NCBI GenBank assembly: GCA_022414725.1
Contig: CM039462.1
Coordinates: forward strand, 52,878,601-52,942,600
DNA from: Microglena sp. YARC
Lineage: Eukaryota; Chlorophyta; Chlorophyceae; Chlamydomonadales; Chlamydomonadaceae
Direction: 5' to 3'
Length of the DNA stretch: 64,000 bases
The notes beneath the pieces are model-generated. The model worked only from the letters and a program-made list of their open reading frames with translations, searched no databases and was not told the origin of the DNA. The position numbers and the translations under genes were made by a program. The first letter of the stretch is position 1. Each line of letters starts with the position of its first letter. Below are positions 6,775 to 63,180 of the stretch, piece by piece.

Positions 6775-7127
6775 ATGTTGGCTGCCTCTGTTGGACTGCC
6801 TCCACCGCAGCTTAAGGGCCAGAAAGGAGGCGCTCAACTACAGCGTTCACTTTCCTGCAGGTGGCCGTCAAGGCAGCGATGTTGGACTGCCTCCTCTGCA
6901 GCTTTAGGGCCAGATAGAAGGCGCTCAACTGCAGCATTCACGTTCCCTCCGGTGGCCGCCAAGGCGGCAATGTTGGACACCTATCTTGGACTGCCTCCGC
7001 CACAGCTCAGCGCCAGACAAGAGGCGCTCAACTGCAGCGTTCACATTTCCGCCGGTGGCGGTCAAGGCGGCGATGTTGGTTTGCTATGTTGGATTGACCC
7101 CACCCGTGGGACTGCCTCCACTGCAGC
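6775..7127 (-). repeat. Three tandem copies of the ubiquilin 3' end
   Basis: Three decayed copies of the last coding part of ubiquilin ([15 protein letters not shown] plus stop) lie just beyond the true stop, spaced roughly 90-120 bp apart. The position equivalent to the stop is at about 6812, 6902 and 7006. The nearest copies keep the AACGCTGCAGTTGAGCGCC core, while the stop is altered in two. They cannot be translated from the normal message except as 3' UTR. This is the terminal-exon form of the border-copy arrays in this window. Confidence 0.8.
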
Positions 7128-7679
7128 TTAAGGGCCAGAAAGGAGGCGCTCAACTGCAGCGTTCACATTCCCGCCGGTGGCTGTCAAGGCGGCGATGTTG
7201 GTTGGCTTGTCATAGAAGCCCATGTCTTGCAATTGCTGCAGCTGAGTGGCGAACGTTGTTTCGGGGTCGGTAGGGGGAACAAGTACATCTGCACCGCCGC
7301 CCATACCCATACCGCCCATACCCCCCATTTGTTGCATCATAGCCATCATATCTGCAAGGCCGCCCCCCCCTGCAGCGTTCACATTCAACCCGCCAGCTGG
7401 GGACGCGCCTCCCGGCACTGCAGGATGAAGGCCGGGGATGCTCATCCCACCCATGCCGCCGCCACCTCCCATGGCTTGCTGCATGCGCATCATGGCTTGC
7501 ATGTTTTGGGGCTGCATCATCTGACGCATCAACTCCGGGTTGCTCATCATGGCACGTGCTGCGGGGTTGGCATCCATGACGCCCCGGACCTGTGGGTTGC
7601 TGTTGATTATGTTCTCCATGAAACCGGGCTGGGAGGCCATCGAGCTCAGCATTTGCTGCACCATGGGGTTCTCCATCAT
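7128..7679 (-). CDS. Ubiquilin exon F: second STI1 region and UBA domain, stop
   Basis: 183 codons plus TAA, after a CATGCAG acceptor. It opens [20 protein letters not shown] (STI1), runs through [18 protein letters not shown] and a Gly/Met-rich stretch ([11 protein letters not shown]), and ends in a UBA domain: [20 protein letters not shown] with [10 protein letters not shown] as the third helix. The MGF loop motif and terminal Leu-Leu are intact, so ubiquitin binding is expected. Both ends of this exon have nearby decayed copies. Confidence 0.92.
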   Translation of the reverse strand: MMENPMVQQMLSSMASQPGFMENIINSNPQVRGVMDANPAARAMMSNPELMRQMMQPQNMQAMMRMQQAMGGGGGMGGMSIPGLHPAVPGGASPAGGLNVNAAGGGGLADMMAMMQQMGGMGGMGMGGGADVLVPPTDPETTFATQLQQLQDMGFYDKPTNIAALTATGGNVNAAVERLLSGP

Positions 7680-8398
7680 CTGCATGGGACAAACAGCAAT
7701 TTAGAATACAAGCTAATTCATTGGTACCCACCATGGCTCGTGACAAGGGGTCAGCATCCATGACGCCTCTGTGTGGGTGGCTTGGTGTGTGGGGGTGGGG
7801 TGGGGGTGTGGGGGGGGGCAACCCAGGGAGGGGGCAACCCATGTATCAGTATATACAGACTGGGAGGCCATCGAGCTTAGCATTTGCTGCACCATGGGGT
7901 TCTCCATCATCTGCAGGAGACAAACAGCAATATATAATGCAAGCTTATTCAATACAAAACATTACATGCAATACATACATACAATACAAATACAATTTAA
8001 TACAGCACAATAAAAATACAATACAATTACAGGAATACAAGCTAATTCGTTGGCAACCATCATAGCTCATGACAAGGGGTTGGCATCCATGACGCCTGTG
8101 TGTGGGTGGCTTGGTGTGTGTGTGGGGTGGGGTGGCGGTGGGCAACCCAGGGAAGGGACAACCCATGTTACAGTATATACAGGCTGGGAGGCCACCTACT
8201 TCATCATTTGAGACAAACAGCAATTTAGAATACAAGCTTATTCGTTGGCAACCATCAGGCTGCCCCCCCCCTCCACCACCGAACATCCCACCCATACCCC
8301 AGATATTGGCCTAGGAAGCTGCCCAGAAGCTGCTGCTAGTGGCCCAAATAAAACACAACCGGTGTATGGCTTACCTGCACCATTGATGCCATATCAGG

Positions 8399-8448
<50 letters not shown>

Positions 8449-9294
8449 CCTCCCCTCCACCACCGAACATCCCACCCATACCCCAGATATTGGCCTAGGA
8501 AGCTGCCCAGAAGCTACTGCTAGTGGCCCAAATAAAACACAACAGGTGTAAGGCTTACCTGCACCATTAATGCCATATCAGGCTGCCCCCCCCCCCCCCC
8601 CCCCCCCTCCACCACCGAACATCCCACCCATTCCCCAGATATTGGCCCAGGAAGCTGCCCAGAAGCTGCTGCTAGTGGCCCAAATAAAACACAACCGGTG
8701 TACCTGCACCATTAATGCCATATCAGGCTGCCCCCCCCCCCCCCCCCCCCCCCGCCTCCCCTCCACCACCAAACATCCCACCCATACCCCTGATGTTGGC
8801 TCAGGAAGCTGCCCAGAAGCTGCTGCTGGGGGCCCGAATAAAACACAACCGGTGTATGGCTTACCTGCACCATTGATGCCATATCAGGCTGCCCCCCCTC
8901 CCCCACCCATCATCCCACCCTGAACCCCTAATTCTTGCTCAGAAAGCTGCCCGGAAGCTGCTGCTAGTGGCCGAAATAAAACACAACCAGTGCATGGCTT
9001 ACCTGCATCATTGATGCCATAGCAGGCTGCCCCCCCGCCCCCACCACCCCATACACCCAAAGTTGGCTCAGGAAGCTGCCCGGAAGCTGCTGCTAGTGGC
9101 CCAAATAAAACACAACGGGGTGGATGGCCTACCTGCACCATTGAGGCTATGTTAAGCTGCCCCCCCCTCCCCCCCCCACACACACCACCCATACCCCTGA
9201 AGTTTGGCTCAGAAAGCTGCCCGGAAGCTGCTGCCAGTTGCCGAAATAGAACACAACGGTTTCATGGCCTACCTGCATCATTGATGCCATATCA

Positions 9295-9337
<43 letters not shown>

Positions 9338-12300
9338 GTTTGCTCAGAAAGCTGCCCGGAAGCTGCTGCTAGTGGCCAAATAAAGCAAAACGGGGTGGAT
9401 GGCCTACCTGCATCATTGACGCCATATCAGGCTGCCCCCCTGCCCCGCCCATCATTCCACCCAACCCCCCAAAGCCCCCCATATCCATGCCCGGTGGCAT
9501 GCCTGTGGGCGCAGCCCCACCTCCTGCCGGGGTGGCTGGGGCCCAGGGGTTAGGCAGGGGCTCGGCATTGGGGGTCTGTTGGGGGGAGGTGGAGGTGGGG
9601 TTGGCAGTGGCACCAGTGGAGGCATCTCCTGGGGCACCCGTGTTGCCAAACAGTGCAGCCATGGGGTTTGCGTTGGCGCCTGTGCTAGGGTTAGTGGCGG
9701 CATTCATCAGGGGCTCCTGCAGCACAGTTAGCAAGTAAATTAGTCAGTCAGCAATGGGGTTTGTGTGGCGCCTGTGCTAGGGTAAGTGGCGGCGTTCATC
9801 AGGGGCTCCTGCAGCACACTTAGCAAGTACATCAGTCAGTCAGTCGGTCGGTTGGTCTGTCTGTCAGTCATTCAGACAGTCGGTCGGTCAGTCGGTCGGT
9901 TGGTCAGTCTGTCAGTCAATCAGACAATCCGTTGGTCAGTCTGTCTCTGTCAGTCTCATCCAGTCAGTCGGTCGGTCAGTCAGTCAGTCGGTCAGTCGGT
10001 GGGTCGGTCAGTCAGTCAGTCAGTAAATCAGCCAGTCAGTCTGTAAATCAGTCAGTCAGTCAGTCAGTCAGTCAGTCAGTCAGTCAGTCAGTCAGTCAGT
10101 CTGTCGGTCATTCAGACAGTCATTCAGACGGTCTGCCTGTCTGTCAGTCAGCGTCTCCAGCAGTGCAGCAAGCCAGCAAGCCAGCAAGCCAGCAAGCCAG
10201 CCAGCCAGCAAGCAAGCAAGCATATCAGTCGGCTACTTGCAGCGGACTGAAGACAGGGTTTACGACAGAGCCAGGGGCCAGTAAGGGCAAGGGTAATGTG
10301 CCAACAGACGAACAGACAACGAGGTGACTCTGATGGCTCCCGCTCTCCAGAAGGGGTGGCTCTGCCACAAATACCATAAGTTTCACAGGCGCAGTTAGTT
10401 AGTTAGTTACCACTGTAATAAATTAGTGTAAAACCTCAAAAGTCACTAACCACAACTGCATACCGTACTGACAGCAAAATTTACCGTTTTTCTTCGGGGG
10501 AAACGCGATGGGGCCGAAATGGGGATCCGCGGGATTGAACCAGGGTCGCACGGTACGCAAGGCCCAGCGAAACCATTCCGCTGATTCGTCAGTCCTGGGT
10601 TCAACGGATGCTCAGTTTGCCACCGAATTAAACCGTCAAAATTTTAAACCGTCAAATTTTTACAACGTCCAATTTTGCTGTCAGTACGGTATTCAACTAG
10701 TTGCATTGCTCATAGCTTGCACCTATACAGACTCAGAGCTCAAGTATCGCACCTGAATAGTTTCATAGCTCATGGGATGGCTTATTGCATAGCACCAGCT
10801 GTTACTCAGGTGCTCATTACTTGCATCAAATTGGTCACAGTGCTCAAGTATCGCACCTGAAGAGTTTCATAGCTCATGGGATGGCTTATAGCATAGCACC
10901 ATCTGTTACTCAGGTGCTCATTACTTGCATCAAATTGGTCACAGTGCTCAAGTATCGCACCTGAATAGTTTCATAGATACGGCGGAGGGCATTGAAGCCC
11001 TCAGGCATGCCTTCGATGTTGGACAAGGCACGGTCTGCGTTGCGCATTTGTTCTCGCATCAGGCTCTGCAAAGATAGGAGGAGTGCGTGGTTGCAGGTGG
11101 TGGTGGCAGTGGTGATGGTGGGTGGTGGTGGCGGGTGATGGCGATGGTGGGTGATGATGTTGAGTGATGGTGATGGTGGGTGATTGTGGTGGTGGTGGTG
11201 GGTGATGATGATGGTGGTGGTGGGTGGGTGCTTTTTTTTGTGTGCGCGAGTGTGTGTGTGTGATGGGGTGAGTGTGAGTGTAATAAGCCCTCAGGCATGT
11301 CTTCGTTGTTGAACAAGGCGCAGTCTGCGTTGCGCATTTGTGCCCGCATCAGGCTACGCACAAACAGGAGGAGTGCGTGGTTACAGGTGGTGGTGGTGGT
11401 GATGATGGTGGATGCTGATGGTGGGTGATGGTGGTGGGTGATGGTGATGGTGGGTGATGGTGATGGTGGGTGATGGTGGGTGATGGTGAGTGGTGGCAGT
11501 GGTGTGTGTGTGTGTGTCATGGGCTGCGTGGTTTTAGGTGGTGATGGTGGGTGGTGGTGGGTTACATTGTTATTTTACTCCACCCCATCACACTCCTGTC
11601 TACCCCACCCACCCCACCCACCCTACTAACAAGTCTCGCCCCCTCCTCCATACGCTGCAAACTTACCGGGATGGTTGCAACTTGCATTGTTATCCCACTC
11701 CACCCCTCATCACTCCTGTCTTCCCCAGTCCACCCACCCCACTCCACCCACCCACCCTACCACTACCAACCAGTCTAGCCCCCTTCTCCATGCACCACGC
11801 TCTCAGCAGGTTGGTTGCAACTTGCATTGTTATCCCACTCCACCCATCCCACTCCTGTCTACCCAACCTGCCAACTCAACCAATACTACCAACCAGTCTC
11901 ACTCCCATCTCCACACCGCAAACTCAGCGGGTTGGTTGCAACTTGCATTGTTATCCCACTCCACCCCGCCCCACTCCTGTCTACCCCACCCACCCCACCC
12001 CACCAACCCTACCAACCAGTCTCACCCCCTTCTCCATGCACCGCAAACTCAGCAGGTTGGTTGCAACTTGCATTGTTATCCCACTCCACCCCGCCCCACT
12101 CCTGTCTACCCCAGCCAACCCACCCCACCCACCCTACCAACCAGTCTTGCCCCATATTCCAAAAACACCGCAAACTCAGCGGGTTGGTTGCAACTTCCAT
12201 CGTTATCCCACTCCACCCGCCCCACTCCTGTCTACCCCACCCACCCCACCCACCCTACCAACCAGTCTTGCCCCCTCCTCCATGCACCGCAAACTCAGCG

Positions 12301-13854
12301 GGTTGGTTGCAACTTGCATTGTTATTCCAATCAACCCCGCCCCACTCCTGTCAACCCTACCCACCCCACCCACCCTACCCACCAGTCTTGCCCCCTTCTC
12401 CATACACCGCAACCTTGCCAGGTTGGTTGCAACTTGCATCGTTATCCCACTCCACCCCACCCCACTCCTGTCTACCCCACCCACCCCCAACCATCACACC
12501 CCACCCACCCTACCAACCAGTCTCGCCCCCTTCTCCATACACCGCAACCTTACCGGGTTGGTTGCAACTTGCATCGTTTGCCGGAGAGTAGCTGGATCAT
12601 TCAAGATTTGGCCTAGCTCTGGGTTTCTCTCAATCAGCTGAATTAAGGGAAGGGGGGAGGGAGGGAGGGGAGGGGGGGGGGGGGGGGGGGGGGGGATGAT
12701 GGCAGTGGTTGGTGGTGAGGTCAGCCATGGTGGTGAACGGTGGAGTGGTGGTGGTGGTGGTGGTGGGGAGGGGGGAGGGGAGGAGGCTAGTTATTAATAA
12801 ATAAATAAACAAATTAATACATAAATTCAGGCTAATCGCATAAATTAATTAGTATGCCCTATTAAGGCGTGAGGTTAAGGGGGCCATCCTGTTTGCTTGC
12901 ACTGAGGCCAACCACCAAAGGTCGTCAATTATGATCATTCGTTCATCAATTATCAGGGGTGGGGAGGGGAGGGGTGAGGTTGATTGTGATGCTGATCAAT
13001 CATTCGCTCATCAATTATCAGGGGGTGGGGTGAGGTTAGGTTGATCGTGATGGTGATCAATCATTCGTTCATCAATTCAGTAGAGAAGGGCGGGGGGTTG
13101 GGAGCCTTACGAGGTTAATTGTGATATGATTGCATTTCATTCTTGCATTCATTCATTCAGTAGAGAAGGGCGGGGGGGGGTTGGGGGCTTAAGAGGTTAA
13201 TTGTGACATAAATTGTAATTCATTCATGCGTTCATCAATTCAGTAGAGAAGGGCAGGGGGGATGGGGGTGTGGTAAATTGTGATATTGATCGAAATTCAT
13301 ACATGAATGAATCAGCTAATACTCATACCCCAGGCCCGCCCCACCCCACCCATGCACCCCCTCCCTACCATCCAGACCTAGGCCATCCCATCTGCCAACC
13401 ATGGATAACCTGCTACAAAATTGGTTTGCTCCCCCCCCCCCCCCCCCCACACACACACACATATGTATGTACGTATGTTACAGCCCAGGAGTAGGCCCAA
13501 TAGGCTAAAGGGACTTAGCATAACTTATGTCATCCAATACCCTGCACACTTGCTTACACTTCCACCTGCACACTGTCAGCGTTAGCTGTTCTGTGGTTCG
13601 GATTGATGAATTCTCGTGTCTGTCAACTCCCGTTTTCCCTAACTCTTCGACGAGGTCATCATCAGGAAGTTGCTCCCGTGTCACCCACCACCCCGCCCCT
13701 TGTAGACAACCTGCTGCAGCACAGGGTTGCTCTGCAACATGCCCCCCCCACCCCCCCCACCACCACCATTCAACCCACCCAGGGCACCCACCTGCCAACA
13801 TAATCTAAATTCTCAAATATCCTGCACACTTGCTAACACCTGCCCCCCCCCCCC

Positions 13855-13898
<44 letters not shown>

Positions 13899-15724
13899 AC
13901 ACAAAACACACACTGGTTCATCTGCTGCAACACAGGGTTGCTCTGCAACCCCCCATCCAACCCACCCAGGCACCCACCCACCAACGTAATCTATGTCTCC
14001 CAATATCCTGCACACTTGCGTACACCTCCCCCCCCCCCCCCCATCCAACCCACCCAGGCGCCCACACACCAAAATAATCTATGTCTTCCAATATCCTGCA
14101 CACTGGCTTACCCCTGCCCCCCCCCCATCTTACACACCCAGGCACCCACCTGCCGACATAATCTCTGTTTTCCAATATCCTGCACACCTGCCCCCCCACT
14201 CCCCACCCACCCACCCACACATACACACTGGCTCACCTGCTGCAGCACAGGGTTGCTCTGCAACATGCTCCTCATAAACTCAGGGTTATTCAGAAACTGC
14301 TGGAAGGCAGGGTCGTTCATCATGTTCATAGTTGAGCCCTGGAAATGGTGGCAGTGGTAGGTGGTGGTGGTGATGGCAGTGGTAGGTGGTGATGGGTGGC
14401 AGTGGTGGTGGTGATGGCAGTGGCAGGTGATGAGGTCAGCTATGGTGGTGATGGGTGGCAGTGGTAGGTGGTGATGGTGGTGGTGGTGATGGCAGTGACA
14501 GGTGATGAGGTCAGCTATGGTAGTGATGGGTGGCAGTGGTGGTGGTGGTGGTGGTGATGGCAGTGGCAGGTGATGAGGTCAGCGATGGTAGTGATGGGTG
14601 GCAGTGGTGGTGGTGGTGTGATGGCAGTGGCAGGTGATGAGGTCAGCTATGGTGGTGATGGTGGCAGTGGGTGGTGGTGGTGGTGGTGTGTGATGGCAGT
14701 GGCAGGTGATGAGGTCAGCTATGGTGGTGATGGGTGGCAGTGGTGGTGGTGGTGGTGGTGATGGCAGTGGCAAGTGATGAGGTCAGCTATGGTGGTGATG
14801 GGTGGCAGTGGTGGTGGTGGTGGTGATGGCAGTGGCAGGTGATGAGGTCAGCTATGGTGGTGGTGGTGGTGGTGGTGATGGCAGTGGCAGGTGATGAGGT
14901 CAGCTATGGTGGTGGTGGATGGTGCAGTGGTGGGTGGTGGTGGTGGTGATGGCAGTGGCAGGTGATGAGGTCAGCTATGGTAGTGATGGGTGGCAGCGGT
15001 GGTGGTGATGGCAGTGGCAGGTGATGAGGTCAGCTATGGTGGTGATGGGTGGCAGTGGTGGTGGTGGTGGTGGTGGTGATGGCAGTGGCAGGTGATGAGG
15101 TCAGCTATGGTGGTGGTGATGGGTGGCAGTGGTGGTGGTGGTGGTGGTGATGGCAGTGGCAGGTGATGAGGGGCAGCTATGGTGGTGATGGGTGGCAGTG
15201 GTGGTGGTGGTGGTGGTGGTGATGGCAGTGACAGGTGATGAGGTCAGCTATGGTGGTGATGGGTGGCAGTGGTGGTGGTGGTGGTGGTGGTGATGGCAGT
15301 GGCAGGTGATGAGGTCAGCTATGGTGGTGATGGACGGCAGTGGTGGTGGTGGTGGTGGTGATGGCAGTGGCAGGTGATGAGGTCAGCTATGGTGGTGATG
15401 GGTGGCAGTGGTAGGTGGTGATGGTGATGGCAGAGGTAGGTGGTGATGTCAGCCATGGTGGTGGTGGTGGTGGCAGTGGTGGTGGTGAGGTCAGTCATGG
15501 TGGTGATGGGTGGCTGTGGTGGTAATGAGGTCAGCCATGGTGGTTGCGTGGTCTGTCATGGTAGTGGTGTGTAAAGGAAACAGTGGTTGGGGGTAATGTC
15601 AGATATGGTGGTGGTGTGACAAGATCAGCCTTGGTGGTGGAACGGTTAAAGCAAAGGTGGGTTTGGGTCGGGTAAGCATTGTCATTATCATTATTATTGT
15701 TATTATTATAGTTATTGTCATTAA

Positions 15725-16049: not shown

Positions 16050-17032
16050 CTGCACACATAGGGTGGGGGTGTCGTGACGTTGGTAGTTGGGTGTATGGTG
16101 GTGGTGGTGGTAATGGTAGTGTGCCGTGGAAGTACAGGTGAGAGTGGAAGTGCTTGGGCTTGATTGACTGCATACATAGGGTGGGGCTGTCGCGACGTTG
16201 GTAGTTGGGTGTATGGTGGTGGTGGCGGTGGTGGTGGTGGTGGTAATGGTAGTGTGCCGTGGAAGTACAGGTGAGTGTGTAAGTGCTTGGGCTTGATTGA
16301 CTGCATACATAGGGTGGGGCTGTCGCGACGTTGGTAGTTGGGTGTATGGTGGTGGTGGCGGTGGTGGTGGTGGTAATGGTAGTGTGCCGTGGAAGTACAG
16401 GTGAGTGTGTAAGTGCTTGGGCTTGATTGACTGCATACATAGGGTGGGGGTGTGAGGTCGTTGGCAGTTGGGTGTGTGTTGTGGTTATAATGTGTGTGGT
16501 TGTGTGCTGGTGGTGTGCCTTGGGAGTACAGGTGGGTGTGTAAGTGCTTGATTGACTGCACACATAGGGTGGGGTGACGATGGTAGTTGGGTGTGTTGTG
16601 TTGTGGTGTGTTTGTGTGCTGGTGGTGTGCTGTGGTAGTTGAGGTGGGTGTGTAAGTGCTTAGGCTTGATTGACTGCACACATAGGGTGGGGGGGTGTAA
16701 GTGCCTGATTGCCACACTAGAGGTTGGGCCGTGAGGACGTTGGTAGTTGGGTGTGAGTGTTTGTGTGCTGGTGGTGTGCTGTGGTAGTTGAGGTGGGTGC
16801 GTCAAGTGCTTGATTGAATGAATGCACACATAGGGTGGGGGGGGTGTAAGTGCTTGATTGACAAACATAAGGTGGGGCTGTGAGGACGTTGGTAGTTATG
16901 TGTGTGTGGTCGTGGTGGTGGTGTATGTGTGTGTGCTGGTGGTGCGCTGTGGTAGTAGAGGTGGGTGCGTAATTGCTTGAGTGACTGCACACTTAGGGTG
17001 GGGGTGGGGCGACATTGGTAGTTGTGTGCGGT

Positions 17033-17069
<37 letters not shown>

Positions 17070-17215
17070 TGATGGGTGTGCAAGTGCTTGGGCTTGATGG
17101 ACAGCACACAGAGGTTGGGGGTGTGGCAACGTGGGTAGTTGTGTGTGGTGGTGTGTGTGTGTGATGTGGTGTGTAAAGTGCTTGGCTTGATCGACAGCAC
17201 GCAAGGGTGCGAGTG
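16050..17215 (-). repeat. About nine tandem copies of the 5' edge of ubiquilin exon A with acceptor
   Basis: Unit about 105-130 bp: CACCCTATG(T/C)ATGCAG acceptor, then TCAATCAAGCCCAAGCACTT (coding QSSPST or its decayed form), then CACC-rich intron and GTTGGTAGTTG in the plus orientation. Copies lie near 16170, 16292, 16420, 16545, 16665, 16815, 16975, 17085 and 17185. Copies near the exon retain perfect acceptors. The His/Pro/Thr-rich minus-strand open frames (up to 372 codons) are translations of this array. Confidence 0.88.
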
Positions 17216-18618
17216 TGGCGACGTTGGTAGTTGTTTGTGTGGTGTGGTGGTGTGTGGTGGTGGTGGTGTGATGGTGTGCGAGTGAGTGTTTGTGGTGGTG
17301 GTGTTTTGAGGGGTGGTGTGTGTGTGTGATGGTGATATACGGTGTGGTGGTGGTGACATATGTGTTTATCACTATACAGTACTATAACACTCCAAAAAAA
17401 GACGCTTGACGTCAACGAGTTTACGTTTTCCCGATTTTTTCAAGAAAAAGAAGGTAATCCTCTCCCACATCCCATCTCACAAAATCTCCCAGATGAAGAC
17501 GCATAACGACGGAAAGGCGCAAATGGTGGGGGGGTTGGGGCTCGATTTCAACCTGGGCAGTTAATTAAAATCTTCAGCTCATTAAATTATACATATTACC
17601 CGTATTTAGTAGCACTATCAGCAGGCTTAAAGCCTTAAACCCAAAGAAATTAAATGTTGGCAAAAAAGCCCGGCAAAAAGGTACAGCAAAAGAGAAATAT
17701 TTTGACGGCCTCGAAGGGGTGGGTGGGGGGACTCAAATCCGTCCTATTCCAATTTGTCGTGACTGGAAGAATTCGACATGAAATGGGCTCCCCTTTCACA
17801 TTCGAGCTTTGTTATCACGAGCCCTGAGTGCCGGAAAGGGTTGGGGTTGGGACAGCGTAGCTGTCACTAACCCTTTTTAAAATTGTACTATTTCTGAGAC
17901 TCGACTATTTCCCCCCATTTCCCCTCGACTCGGCCCTTTTTGTTGCCGTAGCTGCGCTTAGTCTCACAGCGCTTCAGTAACGTACATGCTGACTTTGCTT
18001 GTCGCTAGCCTTCGATTTCGAGAAGCTCGTGTTCAAGATTAGATCCAAGGTCCAGTGTTTAAGATCCAGAGGTCCAAGGTCCCAAGTCGTAAATTTCCAC
18101 GTGACAAAGTGTAGAAGACGCATTCATTCCGTGCAGCAGTTTTGCCTGAACTACTACTACCTGACGGGAAGATAACCATTGATCACGTGCATTCTACAGT
18201 TTTGCAGTTTTGCAATAGCAATCACAGCCCAATGAGACTGAGCTAGAAACGCGCCCCGTTAAATTCAAAGCAACGCTCTGCAAGTCTGAAGTCCACAAAC
18301 ACGTATTGATCTTCCTTTTTTTTTCATTTTCCGTTCAGCAGTGCGTACGGTACCGGCTCGCTGATGTGATAGCACACCCGGGTTGGTGAAAATAAGGGCA
18401 TTTTGCACCTGCTATCAACGACTAAATGGTAATTATCCAGGAGGTTTTAAGTGGATTCTTAAAGAATCCTGCGAACGACTCTTATAGCACAGTGGACTAA
18501 CTTAATTGGAACGGGCCAATCGGATCGGCCAATCGGTCGTTGACACGACTAGTCTGTGACAGACTAGCCTGGGAGAAGACAATGAATTCTAGGGTTCTTC
18601 AATGGGGTTCGAGACAGG
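17216..18618. other. No exon recognised; expected place of the ubiquilin UBL
   Basis: After the array, 17360-18600 is ordinary mixed-composition sequence. I searched both strands for a ubiquitin-like pattern and saw none. Some may be the promoter region of the plus-strand gene at 18672. Two GGCCAATCGG elements with CCAAT cores lie at about 18515-18535. Confidence 0.4.
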
Positions 18619-36732: not shown

Positions 36733-38385
36733 GTGAGTCAGGCTTTGTGTGTGTGGATGTGTATGCGTGTGGGTGGGTGGGTGGGGGGGGGTCCTACACA
36801 TGTGACAACAGTGGAGCCCAGGACCCTTATCCCCTTCTTAATTAAGTATTGAGGACCGGGACCAAGGAGTGGTCTGACCTGAAGGAGTTGAAGGTGAGTC
36901 AGGCTTTGTGTGTGTGGATGTGTCATGCGTAAATTAGGGTGTGTGTGAGGGGGTGGGGTGGGATAAGTGGGGTGGGGGGGGGGGGGGGGGGGGGTGGGGG
37001 GGGCTCCAACTGTGAACACAGTGAGAGCCTAATGATGAATTCCCATTCTTAATAAAGTATGAGGACGGGGACAAGGAGTGGTCTGACCTGAAGGAGTTGA
37101 AGGGTGAGTCAGGCCTTTGTGTGTGTGTGTGTGTGTGGCGGAAGGGTTGGGGGGTTGGTGGGTGGGGTGGGGCTGGGGGGGCGGTCCTACAACTGTTGAC
37201 AGCATTGGAGCCCAAGGACCCTTTCCCCTTCTTAAATTAAGTATGAGGATGGGGACAAGGAGTTGGTCTGACCTGAAGGAGTTTGAAACGTGAGTCAGGC
37301 TATTGTGGTGTGGGATGTGTTAATGGGGTGTGGCTGTGTGTGTGTGTTGTCGTGTGTGTGTGTGTGTGGGGGGGGGGGGGGGAGGGGGAGGGCTCCACAC
37401 TGGGTGAAAACAGTGGAGCCCACAGACGAATACCCTGTCTTAATTAAGTATGAGGAACGGGGACAAGGAGTGGTCTGATCTTATGGAGTTTTGAAGGTTA
37501 GTTGGCTTTGCGTGCATGTGTGTGTGTGTGTGTGTGTGTGTGGGGGGCGACACACGATGAGGGGGGGGGGCTCCAACACTGTGACAACAGTGGAGCAAGG
37601 ACCCCTTTTCCCTTCTTAAAATTAAGTATGAGGACAGGGACAAAGAGTGGTCTGATGTTATGGAGTTGAAGGTAAGTTAGGGCTTTGCGTGTGTGGCCTG
37701 TGTATGTGGGTGGGGGGGCATGGGGGGGGCGCTTCTAAACTGTGACACAGTCAAGCTCCAATGACCAATCCCCTGTGTTATAAGATAAATCAATGAGGAA
37801 CGGGGTGGTGCAGTGTATGTGTGTTTGGGGGGTGGACGGTGTATGCGTGTTGGGGGGGTGAGGGTGGGGTGGACAGTTTCGGCGGGGGTGGGGGGAGGGG
37901 GGTGGACAGTGTACTGTGGGGAGGTGTTGGGGGGTGACAGTGTATGTGTGTCGGGGGGTCGTGAGGGTGTTAGACAAGGCGCAGTGGATCTGATCTTACG
38001 GAGTTGAAGGTCAGTTAGGCTGCGTGTCGCGTGTTTGGCTGTGGCTGCAGATTTGTGTGTGTGACTGGGGGGTGTTGGTGGGCTCCGTACACTGGGGGAC
38101 AACAGTGGAGCCACTGACCAATTCCCTGCCTTAATTAAGTATGAGGACCCGGAGGACAAAGGCAGTGGTCTGATGTTATGGAGTTGAAGTAAGGTAGGCT
38201 GCTTGCGTGTTTGGCTGTGTGTGTGTGTGTGTGTGTGGTGGTGGTGGTGTATACACACATAAGTGTTGGGCTCCTACACTGTGAATGCGTCAGGAGCCCA
38301 AGCGGGAACCCTTTTCCCCTTCTTAATTAAGTATGAGGAGGACAAGGAGTGGTCTGATCTTATGGAGTGTTAAGGTGTGTTTAGG
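36733..38385 (+). repeat. About nine tandem copies of the 3' edge of the Tudor-like exon with donor
   Basis: Units of 160-210 bp carry AATTAAGTATGAGGACGGGG, ACAAGGAGTGGTCTGACCTG and GGAGTTnGAAGGTGAGTCAG, then GTGTGTGTG and G-rich intron and CACTGTGACAACAGTGGAGCC. Copies near 36838-36905, 37040-37115, 37232-37295, 37437-37500, 37612-37680, 37785-37810, 37985-38015, 38130-38195 and 38320-38375. The first copies keep a perfect donor; later ones read GTAAGTTAG or GTGTGTT. ACA-block similarity shows the unit includes the exon's first bases in some copies. Confidence 0.9.
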
Positions 38386-41879: not shown

Positions 41880-42390
41880 TCACTCCCACAGATTCCAAAG
41901 GCACAAGGAGGACAACACACTAAGGCACTCATTATTACGGAACGGCAGTATGATATCATATGATATCATATGATGCTGGCAGTCTGACTAGGCTAAGGTT
42001 ACCATTTATATACAAAATCATATGATATCATACTCGCTTTGTGTCAGCACCACAATGATATGCCGGTCCTCATATGCACACAAGCACACTCACTGTACAA
42101 CAAGCAGCACCTCCTGGGTGGATCATTTTGGCGCACACACTCACTGACACAGATTCCAAAGGACTCAAAGAGGACTATGCACACACACAAACACACTCAC
42201 TGTACACACAAGCACATTCATGGTTGAATCATTTTGGCACACACACACAATGCCACAGATTCCAAAGGGCCCAAAGAGGACTTGATGCACCACACACAAC
42301 ACACTCACTGCACACACAAGCACACTCATTATACACACAAGCGCACTCACTGTACACACAAGCACACTCAGTATACACACTCACTGGCGC
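41880..42390 (+). repeat. Three to four copies of the 5' edge of the next exon with acceptor
   Basis: CACACTCACTCCCACAG|ATTCCAAAGGCACAAGGAGG (AG at 41890-41891), then AG at 42151-42152 and 42257-42258, each followed by ATTCCAAAGGnnnnAAnGAGGA; the true acceptor is at 42391-42392 (ATTCAGATGGGCCCAAGGAG). ACACAC-rich intron separates them. 41945-42050 between copies 1 and 2 is a palindromic TATGATATCATA element inserted later. Confidence 0.85.
41945..42050 (+). repeat. AT-palindromic dispersed repeat C
   Basis: TATGATATCATATGATATC, GATGCTGGCAGTCTGACTAG, GCTAAGGTTACCATTTATAT and ATCATACTC. The reverse complement of the same order is at 46605-46710. Probably a MITE. Confidence 0.8.
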
Positions 42391-42392
42391 AG

Positions 42393-42599: not shown

Positions 42600-43110
42600 T
42601 AAGCAATGTTGAGTAAGGAGGGAGCTGAGAAGAATCAAGGTGGGCAAGGACGAGGTGGCCAAGGAGGGAGAAGCTGAGAAGAAGGTGGGCAAAGAGGAGG
42701 TGGCCAAGGAGGGAGTAGCTGATAAGAATGTGGGCAAGGAGGAGGGTGGCCAAGGAGGGAGGAGCTGAGAAGAAAGGTGGCAAGGAGGGGGTAGCTGAGA
42801 AGAAGGTGGGCAAGGAGGAAGTGGCCAAGGAGGGAGGAGGGAAGGGGTAAGCTGAGCACAGGCTGAAGGAAGGGGTGAGCTGAAGAAGAGTAGGTGGCCC
42901 AACAGCGAAGGAGGGCCAGGAAGCTGACGAAAGGTGGGAAGAGGAGGACTGGGAAGAGGTGAACAAGGAGGGCCTGGAGCTGAAGTGTCGGCTGGCAAGG
43001 TGGTGAACAGAGGTGGCAGAAGGGGAGGAGCTGAAAAGAAGGTGACCAAGGAGGTAGCGGAAGCTGAGGAGAAGGGCAGAGGATGAGGCGGAGGCGTCGG
43101 CTGGCAAGGT
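42600..43110 (+). repeat. Decayed AAGGAGGGAG/AAGGTGGGCAAGGAGGAGGTGGCC repeats
   Basis: About ten units of 40-50 bp. In one frame they would read KEGEAEKKVGKEEVA, but frameshifts break the frame. Either a coding Lys/Glu repeat that has decayed, or copies of an exon border spread into the intron. Confidence 0.65.
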
Positions 43111-47483: not shown

Positions 47484-48041
47484 TTGCAGGGGGGCACGCT
47501 CTTTTTCTAGGAATCACATGCTGCAACACCAAGGCGAGCTACATAATTTGAACGTTTACCTGACTTATTTGACTTAATATTTAAATTCATGTTGTGCAGG
47601 TGGACGCGCTGTTTCTTCAAGTCGATGCTGCACATCCTGGCTAACCAGCCATAGAAGCAAATCAATTCAGTTGCCAATTAAGCAAATTAATTCATGTTTT
47701 GCAGGTGGACGCGCTGTTTCCTCAAGTCAATGCTAAACATCCAGGCTAACCAGCCATAAAAGCAAATTAATTCATTTGCAAATTAAGCAAATTAATTCAT
47801 GTTTTGCAGGTGGACGCGCTGTTTCCTTAAGTCAATGCTAAACATCCTGGCTAACTAGCCATGAAAGCAAATTAATTCAATTGCAAATTAAGCAAATTAA
47901 TTCATGTTTTGCAGGTGGACGCGCTGTTTTCTTAAGTCAATGCTAAACATCCTGGCTAACTAGCCATGAAAGCAAATTAATTCATTTGCAAATTTAGCAA
48001 ATTAATTAAGCAAATGTATTAAATTGATTCATGTTTTGCAG
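47484..48041 (+). repeat. Five tandem copies of the 5' edge of the exon at 48042 with acceptor
   Basis: Units of about 105 bp: AATTCATGTTTTGCAG|GTGGACGCGCTGTTTCCTCA, AGTCAATGCTAAACATCCTGG, CTAACTAGCCAT, AAGCAAATTAATTCA. Acceptors near 47489, 47599, 47704, 47809 and 47915; true acceptor 48040-48041. All have a full TTTTGCAG. After about 35 bp of exon match each changes into intron. Confidence 0.92.
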
Positions 48042-48164
48042 GTGGACACGCTGTTTCTTCGAGTCAATGCTGCACAGCCTTGCGAGACAGCTGATGGCCA
48101 AGAATCAGCTGAAAGCAAGGGGCAATGCCCCCTCCTTACAACAGATGCAGTATGCTATGACAAG
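48042..48164 (+). CDS. Internal exon of unidentified gene (41 codons)
   Basis: Acceptor TTTTGCAG, donor GTAAGA. Phase 0 (VDTLFLRVNAAQPCETADGQ...) joins in phase to 50281. A phase-2 reading, WTRCFFESMLHSLARQLMAK then NQLKARGNAPSLQQMQYAMT, looks more protein-like but would need an alternative acceptor before 50281 (for example at 50261). The boundaries are firm because copies of both edges surround it; the frame is not settled. Confidence 0.55.
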
Positions 48165-48300
48165 GTAAGACTGAACCCCTCCTCCCCCCCCCTCCTACAA
48201 CAGATGCAGTATGCTATGACAAGGTGCGTCTGACCCCCCCCCCCCCCCCCCCCCCCTCCTAACAACAGATGCAGTGTGCTATGACAAGGTGCGTCTGAAC
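48165..48300 (+). repeat. Two copies of the 3' edge of the exon at 48042 with donor
   Basis: CAACAGATGCAGTATGCTATGACAAGGTGCGTCTG at 48195-48230 and again (AGTGTGC variant) at 48262-48298, each separated by a C tract. The donor changed from GTAAGA to GTGCGT, which is also usable. Confidence 0.9.
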
Positions 48301-48316
48301 CCCTCCTCCCTCCCTC

Positions 48317-48351
<35 letters not shown>

Positions 48352-48620
48352 TTCCCCTCCTCCTCTGCCCCCTCCCCCCCCCTCTTCCCTCCCCTCCTGC
48401 CCCTCCCCCCCCTCCCTCCCCCTCCCCTCCCCTCCTGCCCCTCCCCCCTCCTCCCTCCCTCCTGCCCCCCCCCCCCTCCCCCCCTCCTCCCTCCCTCCTC
48501 CCCCCCCCTCCCTCCCCTCCCTCCCCCTCCCTCCCCCCTCGCCCTCCCTCCCCTACCCCCCTCCCTCCCTCCCCCTCCCCCCCCCTCCTGCCCCCCCCTC
48601 CTCCCTCCCCTCCTCCATCA
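48300..48620 (+). repeat. Polypyrimidine C/CT tract
   Basis: C runs with CCTCC interruptions for about 300 bp, continuing the C tracts of the preceding donor copies. Confidence 0.92.
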
Positions 48621-48659
48621 GTTGTCATGTTGCCCTATGCGTAGCGCTTCTATATAGCT

Positions 48660-50280: not shown

Positions 50281-50382
50281 AAAATGATGATGTCGAGAAT
50301 CCTCATGCCATCTATCTTGCCAAGTCGCATTCCCAAGGGGATTTCGGAGATAACGGAGCTGTACGAAAGCCAGGCTCATCAG
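50281..50382 (+). CDS. Internal exon of unidentified gene (34 codons)
   Basis: Acceptor CACCCAACAG, donor GTGGGT, phase 0 at both ends: KMMMSRILMPSILPSRIPKG then ISEITELYESQAHQ. It joins in phase to the terminal exon at 52444. Five copies of its 3' edge follow. No family is recognised. Confidence 0.6.
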
Positions 50383-51000
50383 GTGGGTGGGTGTCATGAG
50401 GGGGGGGGGCAAGGGGATTTCAGAGATAACGGAGCTGAACGAAAGCCAGGCTCAACATTTGGGTGGGCGTGTATGGTGTGTGTGTGTGTGTGTGTGGGGG
50501 GGGGGGGGGCTAGCTCGGGTTTAGGGTTTAGGGGCAACCGGTTAACCCCCCCTGGCTGGCAAACCCCTGGCTAGCGTCCTCCCTCCGGGGGTGGGAGGTG
50601 ATATCCAAGGGGATTTCAGAGATGACGGAGCTGCAGGAAAACGAGGCATATCAGATGGGGGGGGGGGGGGGGGGGGGGAACCCAAGGGGATTTTAGAGAT
50701 AACGGAGCTGTACGAAAGCTAAGCTCATCAGGTGCGTGGGTGTGTATGATGGGGGGCGGGGGGGGGGGGCAAGGGGATTTCAGACATGACAGCTGCACAA
50801 AAAACAGGCACCAGGTGTGGGGGGAGTGGGGGGGAGATATTTGTGAGATTATGGTGGTGGGGGGATGGGGGTGGGGGGAGATATTTGTGAGATTATGGTG
50901 GTGGGGGGGGTGGGGGTGGGGGGAGATATTTGTGAGATCCAAAGGGATTTCAAAGATGACGGTGAGCTGCACTGAAACAGGCTCATCAGGTGGGTGTGTA
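50383..51000 (+). repeat. Five tandem copies of the 3' edge of the exon at 50281 with donor
   Basis: CCAAGGGGATTTCAGAGATAACGGAGCTG, then AAAGCCAGGCTCATCAGGTGGGTG, in copies near 50408, 50605, 50682, 50770 and 50938, spaced 80-200 bp by G tracts and GTGTGT. The copy at 50682 is nearly unchanged. Confidence 0.92.
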
Positions 51001-51074
51001 TGGAAGGGGGGGATATTAATGAGACTTAGGTGGTGGGGTGGGGGTGGTGCATTCATCCTGCCAATTCTCCTTCT

Positions 51075-51265
51075 AAAGGGAGTTCAGAGCTGTTGCAGCG
51101 TGCAAAGTGCAGCGTGCAAGAGCAAGAGCAAGTTTGCTGTTGCAGCGTGCGAACAGAGGCCACGGGGAGGTCGTGTTGGTCCATATGTTTGTGCACATCC
51201 CGGTGATTACGAGCGCTGCTGGCGTCGTAGTGCTCGGAAGTACAATTCAATAGCCGGCTGAATTC
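51075..51265 (+). pseudogene. Long decayed copy of the terminal exon's first half
   Basis: GTTGCAGCGTGCGAACAG, TCGTGTTGGTCCATATGTTTGTGCACATCCCGGTG correspond to the true exon's CTGCAGCATGCCAAG, TTATGTTGGTCAAGATGTTTGTGCATGACATAG. This copy extends further into the exon than the array units do (about 130 bp) and has lost the frame. Confidence 0.65.
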
Positions 51266-51344
51266 CTGTCAGCAGGCTGGTTTTATTCTCATGTCAGATA
51301 GATATCGCATGCCCCACCCTCCTCACCCTGCCTCCTTAAGTGTC

Positions 51345-52443
51345 GTCGTTGTTTGCAGGTGTTTGCCATTGCTGGCATTCTGTTGCAGCGAGCATAGTCA
51401 TGAAAATCAAAATTTAAATTTAATTTAAATTCCCTTCATAATGTGACGTGCAGGTGTTAGCCATTGCTGGCATTCTGTTGCAGCGTGCATAGTCATGAAA
51501 ATCCATACTTAATTTAAATTGAATTAAATCGTCCTTCAAATTGTGACGTGCAGGTGTTTGCCATTGCTGGCATTCTGTTGCAGCGTGCAAAGTAATGGAA
51601 ATCCAAATTTAAATTAAATTTAAATTCCCTTCATAATGTGACGAGCAGGTGTTAGCCATTGCTGGCATTCTGTTGCAGCGTGCATAGTCATGAAAATCCA
51701 CATTTAAATTAAATGTTAATCTCCCTAAATTAGACATTGCTGGCATTCTGTTGCAGCGTGCATAGTCATGAAAATCCATACTTAATTTAAATTGAATTAA
51801 AACGTCCTTCAAATTGTGACGTGCAGGTGTTTGCCATTGCTGGCACTCCGTTGCAGCGTGCATACTAGTGAAAATCCACATTTAAATTAAATGTAAATCT
51901 CTTTAAATTGTGATGTGCAGGTGTTTGCCATTGCTGGCATTCTGTTGCAGCGTGTGAAGTAATGAAATTCCAAATTACATTTTCCTTCAAATTGTGACGT
52001 GCAGGTGTTTTCCTTTGCTGGCATTCTGTCGCAGCGAGCATAGTCATGAAAATCCACGATTAAATATTAAATTAAAATCCCCTTCGAATTGTGACGTGCA
52101 GGTGTTTACCATTGCTGGCACTCCGTTGCAGCATGCAAATTAATGACAATCCACATTTAAATTAAATTTAAATCTCCTTCAAATGGTGGCCTGCAGGTGT
52201 TTTCCATTGCTGGCACTCCGTTGCAGCGAGCATATTCATGAAAATCCACATTTAAATATTAAATTAAAATCCCCTTCGAATTGTGACGTGCAGGTGTTTG
52301 CCATTGCTGGCACTCCGTTGCAGCATGCAAATTAATGACAATCCACATTTAAATTAAATTTAAATCCTTTAAATTAACTTGACACTTCAAATTAAATTAA
52401 CTTAACACTTTAAATTAAATTAAAATCAAATGGTGGCCTGCAG
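51345..52443 (+). repeat. Eleven tandem copies of the 5' edge of the terminal exon with acceptor
   Basis: Unit about 85-105 bp: TTGTGACGTGCAG|GTGTTTGCCATTGCTGGCAT, TCTGTTGCAGCGTGCATAGT, CATGAAAATCCA, AATTTAAATT. Acceptors near 51359, 51453, 51555, 51650, (51735 partial), 51828, 51922, 52007, 52102, 52197 and 52293; true acceptor 52442-52443. Copies share substitutions absent from the real exon (GCTGG for TCCGA), so they multiplied from one already mutated copy. Confidence 0.95.
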
Positions 52444-52692
52444 GTGTTTGCCATTTCCGACATTTTGCTGCAGCATGCCAAGTCGTGTAAGGAGAAGATT
52501 ATGTTGGTCAAGATGTTTGTGCATGACATAGATATCGCCTACAACATTGTAGTGCCGATGTACAACAAGTGGGCTTCGGATGATGACCCAGAGGCATCCT
52601 CTGGTGACGTGGCAGTCCCTGCTGCTAGTGTGGTTGAAATGAAGTTGGTCAAAGGAGCGCTATTTGGAATGGAGTTCTCTGCCTCTTTGTAG
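52444..52692 (+). CDS. Terminal exon of unidentified gene (82 codons and stop)
   Basis: Acceptor GCCTGCAG, stop TAG 52690-52692. Reads VFAISDILLQHAKSCKEKIM, LVKMFVHDIDIAYNIVVPMY, NKWASDDDPEASSG..., ending FGMEFSASL. The first half is likely helical, the second an acidic loop and a hydrophobic end. It connects in phase 0 with 50281-50382. I do not recognise the family. Whether it belongs with the Tudor-like exons at 30-42 kb is unknown. Confidence 0.65.
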   Translation: MFAISDILLQHAKSCKEKIMLVKMFVHDIDIAYNIVVPMYNKWASDDDPEASSGDVAVPAASVVEMKLVKGALFGMEFSASL

Positions 52693-58350: not shown

Positions 58351-58423
<73 letters not shown>

Positions 58424-61400: not shown

Positions 61401-62943
61401 CACCCCCACGAGTGCAATCAGTTATTCACAAACATCACCATCCTCAACCCCACCATGAGCAGCAGCACTTCCACCTCCACCATCACCACCTTCCTACGCA
61501 CACCCTACAGCAGCCTGCAACCTGTTCAGGTTGCCAAACAGGTGTACATGGTGTTAAGCACCTGCTCAACAACTATATGCCTAGCCCCTGGTTTAACCAA
61601 TGATGAACATAAACTGGTTTTAAACACCCTGAGCACCTCTTTAACAACCTGAGTAGGGTGCAGGCTACTGTAGGGTGTGCCTGGGAAGGTGCTGATGGTG
61701 GTGCTGCTGCAGCTGCTACTTATGTTGGCGGTGAGGATGGTGATGTTCATGAATAACCTCTTGCACCTGGACAGGGTGCAGGTCACCATAAGGACACACA
61801 CACTGTCTGTCCGTCACACCCACTCACCTTCCCACTCATGCACTCACCCACGCACCCATCCACCTTCCCATTCACCTGCTTACCTACTCCCCTTCAACTC
61901 AACACACCTTCCAGATACCCAACCCACCCTCTCTCTACCAGGCTCTGTAAACTGTGTACTTGTGGGAGGCCTGTCTGGAGGCAATTAATCACACGCCCTT
62001 TCATATGCCACTCACTCACTCATCCACTCACCCACCCTCCTTCCCACCCACCCACCCTCTCACCCACCCTCTCTCTACCAGGCTCTGTAAACTGTGTACT
62101 TGTGGGAGGCCTGTCTGGAGGCAATTAATCACACGCCCTTTCATATGCCACTCACTCACTCATCCACTCACCCACCCTCCTTCCCACCCACCCACCCTCT
62201 CACCCACCCTCTCTCTACCAGGCTCTGTAAACTGTGTACTTGTGGGAGGCCTGTCTGGAGGCAATTAATCACACGCCCTTTCATATGCCAATTACTCACT
62301 CATCCACTCACCCACCCTCCTTCCCACCCACCCACCCTCTCACCCACCCTCTCTCTACCAGGCTCTGTAAACTGTGTACTTGTGGGAGGCCTGTCTGGAG
62401 GCAATTAATCACACGCCCTTTCATATGCCACTCACTCACTCACCCACTCACCCACCCTCCTTCCCACCCACCCACCCTCTCTCTACCAGGCTCTGTAAAC
62501 TGTGTACTTGTGGGAGGCCTGTCTGGAGGCAATTAATCACACGCCCTTTCATATGCCACTCACTCACTCACCCACTCATCCTCTCACCCACCCTCCTTCC
62601 CACCCACCCACCCTCTCACCCACTCATTCTCTCACCCACCCTCCTTCCCACCCACCCACCCACTCACCCACTCATCCACTCACCCACCCTCCTTCCCACC
62701 CACCCACCCTCTCACCCACCCTCCCTCTACCAGGCTTTGGAGACTGTGTACTTGCGGGAGGCCCATCTGGAGGCAATCAAGCACCGTGGGCTAACAGAGC
62801 GTCACTGGGAGCGCTTTGTGAAACACTTCGAAGTTACCCTTCGTGAACTGTCACAACAGATCCCAGAAGAGAAGCGAAAGTCAGCTGTGGCCAACATCCG
62901 TGCTACCCGAATGTACTTCGCCCCAGCACGGCCTGGGGAATAA
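56970..62943 (+). CDS. Truncated hemoglobin, group I-like, three main exons (134 codons from the Met pair at 57081)
   Basis: Truncated hemoglobins carry heme in a shortened 2-on-2 helical fold and bind O2 or NO. Exons 57075-57170, 59242-59346 and 62734-62943 are all phase 0. Reading from MMAGG at 57081 gives 30+35+69 residues, the usual family size. Family features: KKVIDMLFDKILADVELAYF (helices A-C, C-D phenylalanines), FEGVDMEYLKKKQEVM (helix E, the K-Q at the end as in the family's E11 Gln), VMFGG, YLREAHLEAIKHRGLTERHW with the proximal heme-ligand His in REAH, and HFEVTLREL. The residue aligned to the usual distal TyrB10 ('FY') is Phe here ('LF'). The Gly-Gly turn before helix A is not obvious. 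An extra 5' mini-exon (56970-56984) is possible. Confidence 0.85.
57075..57170 (+). CDS. Globin exon 1 (helices A-B)
   Basis: Acceptor TTCCCGCGCAG, donor GTAAGT. Encodes HAMMAGGASDHTGKTFVKEI then ASKKVIDMLFDK. KKVIDMLFDK matches helix B of truncated globins. If no mini-exon is used, translation starts at 57081. Confidence 0.8.
57171..58340. other. Globin intron 1, first part: no supported gene
   Basis: Plus open frames at 57042-57578 and 57520-58002 run through this stretch but show no domain. 58030-58230 has loose repeats of CCATGCACTGCACCAT. At 57665-57690 GTCATCGACATG repeats 12 bases from exon 1 and could be a last trace of a border copy. Confidence 0.4.
58350..58480 (+). repeat. C tract and (CA)n
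   Basis: A C run (58357-58392) followed by CA repeats interrupted by CCCCCC, to 58480. Confidence 0.95.
58600..59225 (+). repeat. Tandem repeat, unit about 115 bp, five units, rich in CTAACTGACTAA
   Basis: Units share CCCCCAGCTGCCCATCAAGA, AATCAAACCATGCAACTAAC, TAGCAGACTAACTGACTAAG, TATCTATCCAACTAACCC. They end about 15 bp before the exon 2 acceptor. The CTAAC/CTGAC motifs resemble branch points, so the array multiplies branch-point-like sites. Confidence 0.88.
59242..59346 (+). CDS. Globin exon 2 (helices C-E, 35 codons)
   Basis: Acceptor TGAATGCAG, donor GTAAAC. ILADVELAYFFEGVDMEYLK then KKQEVMMDVMFGGLQ. ADVELAYFFEGVDM is the family's 'L-D--L--FF-G-DM' signature. Both junctions are phase 0. 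Confidence 0.92.
59500..59592 (+). repeat. Dispersed repeat B
   Basis: AAACGCTGTCCCTGGAGGAG, GCCTATTACCATGAAGCTAG, TAAAAACCCACCTCCGGATTTGAAAAAA, matching 40305-40378 and, in reverse, 41300-41385. Followed by AATCACTGGGTAAACCCAGAA repeated three times (59578-59652). Confidence 0.75.
59705..59785 (+). repeat. Copy of the 3' half of globin exon 2
   Basis: TAGACATGGAGTATTTAAAA, ATGAAGGAGGAGGTGATGAA, CATCATGTTTGGAGGTCTCC against the exon's TAGACATGGAGTATTTGAAA, AAGAAGCAGGAGGTGATGAT. The donor is lost (CTGATCAACCCAG). Confidence 0.9.
59800..59870 (-). repeat. Reverse fragment of the GAGCAGCC-GAAGGCTG satellite
   Basis: CAGCCTTCAGGCTGCTCACCGTCTGCTG is the reverse complement of the 4.4-4.9 and 6.1-6.8 kb satellite core. 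A single copy inside the globin intron. Confidence 0.7.
60175..60242 (+). repeat. Second copy of the 3' half of globin exon 2
   Basis: GTAGACATAGAATATTTGAA, ACAGAAGCAGGGGTTGTTAATGGATGTCATGTTTTGATG. Preceded, like the copy at 59705, by GGTTTGGTAGTCATTnGTAGACAT and CAGCCTAAAGGATGGATGCACAG, so the duplicated unit is about 480 bp. Confidence 0.85.
60240..60670. repeat. Inverted GGGCAGCGCGTTGCACT blocks
   Basis: GGTGGGCAGCGCGTTGCACTGGG..GTTGTGAGGTGCTCAATTTGC at 60262-60325 is mirrored by GCAAATTGAGCAACTCAGTGCAACGCGCTGCCCCC at 60620-60655. GCGACGCGTCGCAC occurs in both 60322-60335 and 60757-60771. Origin unknown. Confidence 0.7.
61130..61290 (-). repeat. Two copies of a minus-strand block reading ...RLAVKEKLL-GV and stop
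   Basis: On the minus strand 61200-61136 reads VEDGDIIRLAVKEKLLDGV then TGA; a shorter copy at 61280-61236 reads KRLAVKEKLLGGV then TGA. It looks like the duplicated 3' end of a coding exon, by analogy with the globin and ubiquilin ends, but no rest of a gene is visible upstream in minus direction. Confidence 0.4.
61493..61682. repeat. Hairpin: inverted repeat with arms of about 85 bp
   Basis: CACACCCTACAGCAGCCTGCAACCTGTTCAGGTTGcc... is mirrored by GGGTGCAGGCTACTGTAGGGTGTG; further in, GTGTTAAGCACCTGCTCAACAAC pairs with GAGCACCTCTTTAACAAC-type sequence less well. Part of globin intron 2. Confidence 0.75.
61830..62733 (+). repeat. Five tandem copies of the 5' edge of globin exon 3 with acceptor
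   Basis: 140-bp units: CTCTCTCTACCAG|GCTCTGTAAACTGTGTACTT, GTGGGAGGCCTGTCTGGAGG, CAATTAATCACACGCC, then CACTCACCCACC-rich intron. Exon-copy starts are 61942, 62082, 62222, 62362 and 62490; the true exon starts at 62734. Each has a full acceptor, but the third codon is TAA, so inclusion of any copy would terminate translation. The copies are almost identical to each other and differ from the real exon at the same sites. Confidence 0.97.
62734..62943 (+). CDS. Globin exon 3 (helices F-H and stop)
   Basis: 69 codons and TAA. ALETVYLREAHLEAIKHRGL, TERHWERFVKHFEVTLRELS, QQIPEEKRKSAVANIRATRM, YFAPARPGE. The His in REAH is the proximal heme ligand; H-W and HF--TLREL are the family's G helix. The last ~25 residues correspond to helix H and a short tail. 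Confidence 0.92.
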   Translation, partial: ALETVYLREAHLEAIKHRGLTERHWERFVKHFEVTLRELSQQIPEEKRKSAVANIRATRMYFAPARPGE

Positions 62944-63180
62944 GCCAGCTGCCGCCCACACAGATCCCAGAAGAGATGAGGAATTCAGCCGTGGCCAACA
63001 TCCATGCTACCCTAATGTACTTTGGGGCAGCACAACCAGAGAAATAAGCCAGCTGCTGCCCGCTCGGCCGTACAGATCCCTGGGGAGAAGCAATAGCCAA
63101 CCGTGGCCAACATCTGAGCCACCTGTATGGACTTTGCAGCAGCATGACTGGGGGAATTAGCCAGCTGAGGCCAACACACA
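62944..63180 (+). repeat. Two further copies of the globin 3' end including stop
   Basis: Units starting CAGATCCC at 62857 (real), 62961 and 63073, length 104-112 bp. Copy 2 keeps the reading through AATGTACTT and ends GAGAAATAAGCCAGCTGC; copy 3 is more decayed (GGGGGAATTAGCCAGCTG). This mirrors the ubiquilin 3' end at 6775-7127. Confidence 0.93.

Follow-up and report, generated by a model that had tools for sequence, protein, structure and literature searches.

Does a process anchored at exon borders lengthen the introns of the green alga Microglena sp. YARC, or does selection simply leave behind those duplications that fall within introns or span exon edges? The question is raised by a window of 64,000 nucleotides (C1:52878601-52942600, in an assembly of 568 Mb and 2390 contigs), in which exons are flanked by tandem, decayed copies of their own edges and splice sites. 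We followed these copies from the genes of the window, which was picked for its striking look, to other genes of the same genome. An edge was scored as duplicated when the 30-mer centred on it matched another 30-mer on the same strand, at most 3 kb away, in at least 24 of 30 positions; edge scores below are given in this form.

Exon-edge copies in the window

The best-supported gene of the window encodes, on the minus strand, a ubiquilin (Pfam UBQLN1 and UBA), whose nearest homologue found is 69% identical across the entire query; the matches listed next come from green algae and land plants, among others. Spliced alignment to this protein, which is independent of the first inspection of the DNA, places borders at 14338/14237, 12637/12554, 11065/10961, 9716/9408 and 7679, in agreement with those drawn by eye in the sequence-only reading. 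Sequence reading and tblastn identify decayed repeats of exon edge and splice site adjoining these borders, and copies of the last codons past the stop.

Donor-side copies of the exon end (13505..14236; edge 26/30 at 315 bp) follow the exon at 14237..14338, which is supported by Pfam UBQLN1 and spliced alignment (its 11 final residues are not shown here). The exon at 12554..12637 (LIERNPEL...VATNP; spliced alignment) is followed by a donor-side array of seven copies (11605..12553; edge 28/30), from most of which the GT is gone. Two copies of a 104-bp unit (10734..10960; edge 30/30) lie on the donor side of the exon at 10961..11065 (SLMREQ...YETIQ; spliced alignment); a decayed acceptor with the first 24 codons of the same exon is found at 11284..11380 (tblastn, 70.8%), the acceptor edge itself scoring only 23/30. 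The exon at 9408..9716 (EPLMNAA...MASMMQ; spliced alignment) carries copies on both sides, with seven copies of the exon end and donor site in units of about 140 bp at 8245..9407 (edge 28/30), and an acceptor-side copy of the exon start at 9717..9843 (edge 28/30 at 92 bp; TRF 9651-9843). The last coding exon (7131..7679; Pfam UBQLN1 and UBA, spliced alignment; stop codon 7128-7130) has an acceptor edge of 28/30 with its copy 231 bp away. Copies of its last codons and of the bases after the stop occupy 6789..7127 (stop edge 29/30; TRF 6789-7079), where tblastn finds the end of UBA repeated at 7077-7009, 6977-6906 and around 6892-6815. All of these features are on the minus strand, as is an acceptor-like array of units of about 92-149 bp at 16052..17271 (edge 29/30; TRF), although the adjoining exon is a candidate, the homologue alignment being ambiguous for the central part of the gene, to which the exon near 16052 belongs. 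The earlier description of ubiquilin arrays beside confident exons thus holds for the aligned borders, but the exon at 16052 is not fixed by the alignment.

Sequence reading reveals the same pattern in two further genes, both on the plus strand. The gene at 36-53 kb contains donor-side arrays at 36733..38385 (seven copies by BLAST, with many single-base indels; edge 25/30) and 50383..51000 (four copies, two of them lacking GT; edge 24/30), donor-side copies at 48165..48300 (edge 26/30), and acceptor-side arrays at 41880..42391 (units of about 106 bp; sequence reading, TRF 42077-42380; edge 23/30), 47484..48041 (six copies of a 105-bp unit; edge 29/30) and 51354..52443 (nine copies of a unit of about 95 bp; edge 27/30). 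The array at 43085-45885, which had also been described as exon-flanking, is present, but no independently supported exon adjoins it. The joined exons of this gene (48041-52692) match Ribonuc_L-PSP below threshold (PF01042, E 0.00035), and for the exon that ends at 36732 the match is weak and Tudor-like (E 0.019). A possibly coding 45-bp tandem repeat, in which lysine and glutamate codons abound, lies at 42637-42839, after a probable donor near 42600. The last gene of the window is globin-like and carries an acceptor-side array of five copies of a 140-bp unit (61922..62733; edge 26/30) and a stop-side copy of the end of its last exon (62944..63061; TRF 62856-63061; edge 23/30). Pfam gives no globin match for this last exon, and its best solved-structure matches, which are weak, are truncated globins (E 0.007 and above).

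To set these copies against chance, the edges of the first reading and the other edges of the same exons were combined in a list of 21, of which 14 are duplicated compared with a mean of 6.9 in circular shifts of the edge set (p=0.016); with a threshold of 22/30 the figures are 17 of 21 and 8.8 (p=0.0035). The tandem copies of exon edges are therefore real and exceed the chance given by shifted edges, but the statement that nearly every exon has them is too strong, because only 14 of the 21 listed edges pass the strict test. Those that fail are the acceptors at 11065 (23), 12637 (16), 14338 (17), 42391 (23) and 50280 (17), and the stop sites at 52692 (17) and 62943 (23). The upstream ubiquilin intron (window 23113 to 21527), which is outside the list, has no duplicated edge. 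Merged TRF arrays with a period of at least 40 give a lower overlap, 8 of 40 touching a listed edge within 15 bp, since the TRF ends stop short of several edge arrays.

Edges and intron interiors across the genome

Other genes were located with conserved proteins as queries, and their borders taken from spliced alignment, such that these borders rest on protein homology; sampling stopped at 36 loci, a small sample. Seventy-one introns (35 + 36) passed an automatic score, of which 45 were kept and 26 dropped for very short or odd exons, low complexity, or possible jumps between copies. These 45, six introns that narrowly missed the score and one whose donor was set by hand (FTSH_L026) make up a curated set of 52 introns in 20 genes, chosen by hand after the duplication counts were visible. 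By manual count, 10 of the 52 edges of the dropped introns are duplicated. In the automatic set before curation, which has 68 edges, 33.8% of the edges are duplicated; the share is 37.5% for interior positions and 14.9% for exon-interior ones.

In the curated set, 31 of 104 edges have same-strand partners within 3 kb, whereas in an inverted-strand control none of these edges passes and, among 780 interior positions, 6 do. The 19 genes outside the window account for 25 duplicated edges of 94 (27%; 13 donors and 12 acceptors), and in their intron interiors 36% of positions are duplicated in the raw count, or 15% with copy-number weighting. Genes differ widely. Eight of the 19 have no duplicated edge, five of which (EF2, KIF_L030, FTSHi_L018, NSF and FTSH_L023) are also nearly devoid of interior duplication; EF2 has 0 of 16 edges duplicated and an interior value of 0. 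At six kinesin loci, as well as at L021 and L022, half or more of the edges are duplicated. Across loci L009-L036, some genes are nearly free of local duplication in their introns, and others have more than half of their intron positions in local copies.

In a matched simulation, random tandem duplication beside frozen exons was fitted for each real intron to its length and interior coverage. For the genes outside the window it yields 16.8-18.6 duplicated edges (sd 3.0-3.5), compared with the 25 observed; at 27/30, 17 are observed and 11.3-12.9 expected, and the ubiquilin gene has six where 3.2-3.5 are expected. When introns are not matched, edges and collapsed interior stand in a ratio of 1.75 (cluster bootstrap 1.10-2.31), which rises to 2.08 (1.56-2.60) if only the 14 active genes are counted, compared with 0.80-0.94 simulated, and the observed unmatched ratio is reached in simulation only with 60% of events aimed at borders; simpler simulations give edge-to-interior ratios of 0.96-1.41. 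As these results hinge on the assumed block lengths, copy numbers and deletions, we do not regard the edge excess as absent, but as small or uncertain, and any border preference in duplication as weak or uncertain.

The excess over the matched simulation, the roughly two-fold excess of edges without intron matching, and the enrichment over shifted edges in the window would each be expected if exon borders were true hot spots, at which breaks or stalled forks linked to transcription or splicing (e.g. through R-loops close to splice sites) cause introns to grow mainly from their ends. We nevertheless consider this explanation unlikely. In raw counts the interior is duplicated at least as often as the edges, and edge copies can be recognised for longer, since half of their reference, the exon, is frozen.

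Block shape, decay and origin of the copies

The shape of the duplicated blocks bears more directly on anchoring. For the 31 duplicated edges of the curated set, the best partner lies on the intron side in all 17 donors and in 13 of 14 acceptors, and every block holds both exon and intron sequence, with an exon part of 16-130 bp (median 61 bp) and an intron part of at least 18 bp (median 47); the exon part is the shorter in 17 of the 31. No set breakpoint relative to the splice site was found among these 31 edges, the 16-130 bp of exon being scattered, and a mechanism with set breakpoints was rejected on this ground. Stop-codon edges, at which no splicing is needed, bear copies too and in this respect behave like splice edges, a further point against border hot spots.

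The divergence of the copies points the same way. In the 21 arrays with at least three copies, the ratio of copy-to-copy to edge-to-copy divergence, for which a value of 2 is expected if every copy came directly from the frozen edge, has a median of 1.20 and is at most 1 in five arrays; it is at least 1.7 in two, and these two arrays with ratios near 2 speak against random placement. The clearest case of internal growth is the globin-like array at 61922..62733, whose copies differ by 2% from each other and by about 10% from the functional edge. Rank correlations of divergence with distance from the exon show no consistent gradient, rising in nine and falling in seven of 16 arrays. With ratios mostly well below 2, it is unlikely that tandem duplication truly concentrates at edges because of transcription- or splicing-linked breaks, with the introns of active genes growing largely from their ends and each gene retaining a decaying record of its own former edges. 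The proposal that the duplication process is anchored at exon borders is thus mostly unsupported, given the scattered breakpoints, the interior and edge frequencies of 36% and 27%, and the copied stop edges, yet a residual edge excess persists.

The extra edges might instead be kept for a function, whether as reserve or decoy splice sites or as stages of recursive splicing. GT is retained in 46 of 59 donor copies (manual count) and AG in 59 of 64 acceptor copies, and, measured against the functional edge, the acceptor AG appears better preserved than its neighbours; this comparison is biased, however, as the functional AG is not free to vary. When copies alone are compared, the dinucleotides change as often as their neighbours, both at donors (7 of 88 changed, compared with 79 of 948 neighbours) and at acceptors (5 of 112, compared with 80 of 1196), with intervals that cross zero in both cases. 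Some arrays, such as that at 11605-12553 in ubiquilin, have moreover lost most of their donors. Retention as kept or decoy splice sites, which we consider very unlikely, was rejected once the apparent acceptor conservation had disappeared in the comparison restricted to copies; on their sequence, the edge copies look neutral.

An origin from mobile or introner-like elements inserted beside exons would predict related units at many loci, and a piece of about 50 bp from the intronic half of the donor unit in ubiquilin does occur at many other places. The exon-bearing parts of the two units searched against the genome, however, match only their own locus among the matches scored or listed. For the ubiquilin donor unit, eight long or full-unit matches, all in its own array, were found among the 40 of 252 candidates scored, the other listed matches being short pieces of the intron half or its G run. 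For the globin-like unit, the exon-bearing start matches only its own locus among the matches listed (40 of 203 candidates scored), and its CACCC-rich tail is widespread in the genome. Of 37 edge units compared across 37 records, 35 are similarly confined to their own locus, and the other two match elsewhere through simple-repeat stretches. A mobile-element origin was rejected since, among these records and matches, the exon-bearing units are local to their own locus, and we regard it as the least probable of the origins considered. The recurring piece of 35-55 bp (window 8641-8696) is a short dispersed repeat, present in both orientations at ten or more of the other sampled loci and in many parts of the genome.

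An artefact of assembly or sequencing in repeats could be suspected from the arrays at 36.7-38.4 and 43.1-45.9 kb, which appear rich in single-base indels, and from the run of 75 G bases with which the window starts. Mean copy-to-copy differences of 2-21% across arrays, and the recurrence of the pattern in independent genes on several contigs, make this exceedingly unlikely. The copies in the two arrays at 36733-38385 and 43085-45885 differ in their indels from those of the ubiquilin arrays, which may reflect unpolished reads or faster decay; the G run lies at window 18-92, and several runs of C or of G, 22-46 bases long, occur within arrays.

The copies are tandem, lie on the intron side, have scattered breakpoints, occur in many genes, and carry splice dinucleotides that decay like their neighbours. 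We consider it probable that the arrays arise mostly by local tandem duplication that is not anchored at borders, together with selection that protects the exons. According to this proposal, the genome would produce local tandem duplications, tens to a few hundred bases long and placed without regard to splice sites, by slippage, unequal exchange or microhomology repair; genes would differ in their rate, from high to almost zero. A block internal to an intron would be harmless, and so would one that crosses an edge, since exon and splice site stay intact in the exon-joined copy and the extra copy lands on the intron side; wholly exonic blocks would mostly be purged. The arrays might then expand and contract like ordinary tandem arrays, with introns lengthening and the surplus splice sites and exon fragments decaying, while the exon-joined splice site would be the only one used. 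An uneven, locally high duplication rate under exon selection, the latter of which we infer, would explain the arrays, their sidedness, the scattered breakpoints and the neutral decay. Selection that leaves edge-spanning and intronic duplications, which the sequence-only reading had offered as an alternative to anchoring, thus fits and accounts for most of the pattern, although the edge excess is left over.

Relation to known routes of intron growth

Ordinary intronic minisatellites likewise expand and decay as tandem arrays, their units measuring tens to hundreds of bases, and many such arrays are present in the intron interiors studied here. The alga differs in that, at many borders, coding sequence and a splice site form part of its unit.

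Duplication across borders has been described in a potato RNA-dependent RNA polymerase gene, which gained a new spliced intron when a block spanning an intron-exon boundary was duplicated in tandem (PMC4974935). There the tandem block crosses the border and the splice signals are copied along with it, as in the alga; the potato case, however, is one event with a new spliced intron, whereas the alga has multi-copy arrays, seen in the DNA, at many edges. Tandem duplication within genes has also been reviewed as a route of intron gain (PMC3443670), with the AGGT model of Rogers (1989) and the work of Gao and Lynch (2009) cited for within-gene duplication as a source of introns (PMC3443670; PMC4974935). 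Short intragenic tandem duplications like those seen here are called common there (PMC3443670; PMC4974935). In the classic model, however, an exonic AGGT stretch is duplicated to yield an intron, whereas in the alga existing introns are lengthened and their edges multiplied at unusual density. Introner elements share with these arrays the presence of repeated sequence tied to introns, but are dispersed among genes (PMC9860276), whereas the algal units are local; a near-identical exon-bearing unit in many genes, as would characterise introners, was not found, only the own locus appearing among the matches scored or listed. No described system of this form stood out among the titles and abstract openings searched in the open-licence literature, nor did passages of PMC11228838 bear on it. 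Cross-border duplication as such is already described, and the distinctive feature here is its density.

With about a quarter of the sampled splice borders lying beside their own copies, this genome offers a natural experiment on how the spliceosome chooses its sites. The same experiment bears on intron lengthening and on how frequently a duplicated edge becomes a new intron or isoform, and gene prediction may mistake decayed edge copies for exons. The residual edge excess, if upheld in a full count, would link transcription or splicing to duplication.

A separate observation arose from the choice of queries. RPB2 was a poor probe, its list being filled by many intronless virus-like copies: a human RPB2 query gave 39 matches on C1-C6 and small contigs, with open frames of at least 972 codons, in two identity classes of about 49% and 34%. 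Judged from their places and scores, many of these matches look like intronless RNA polymerase genes of giant-virus type, and some may be cellular; the former, if true, would mean many viral insertions in this genome.
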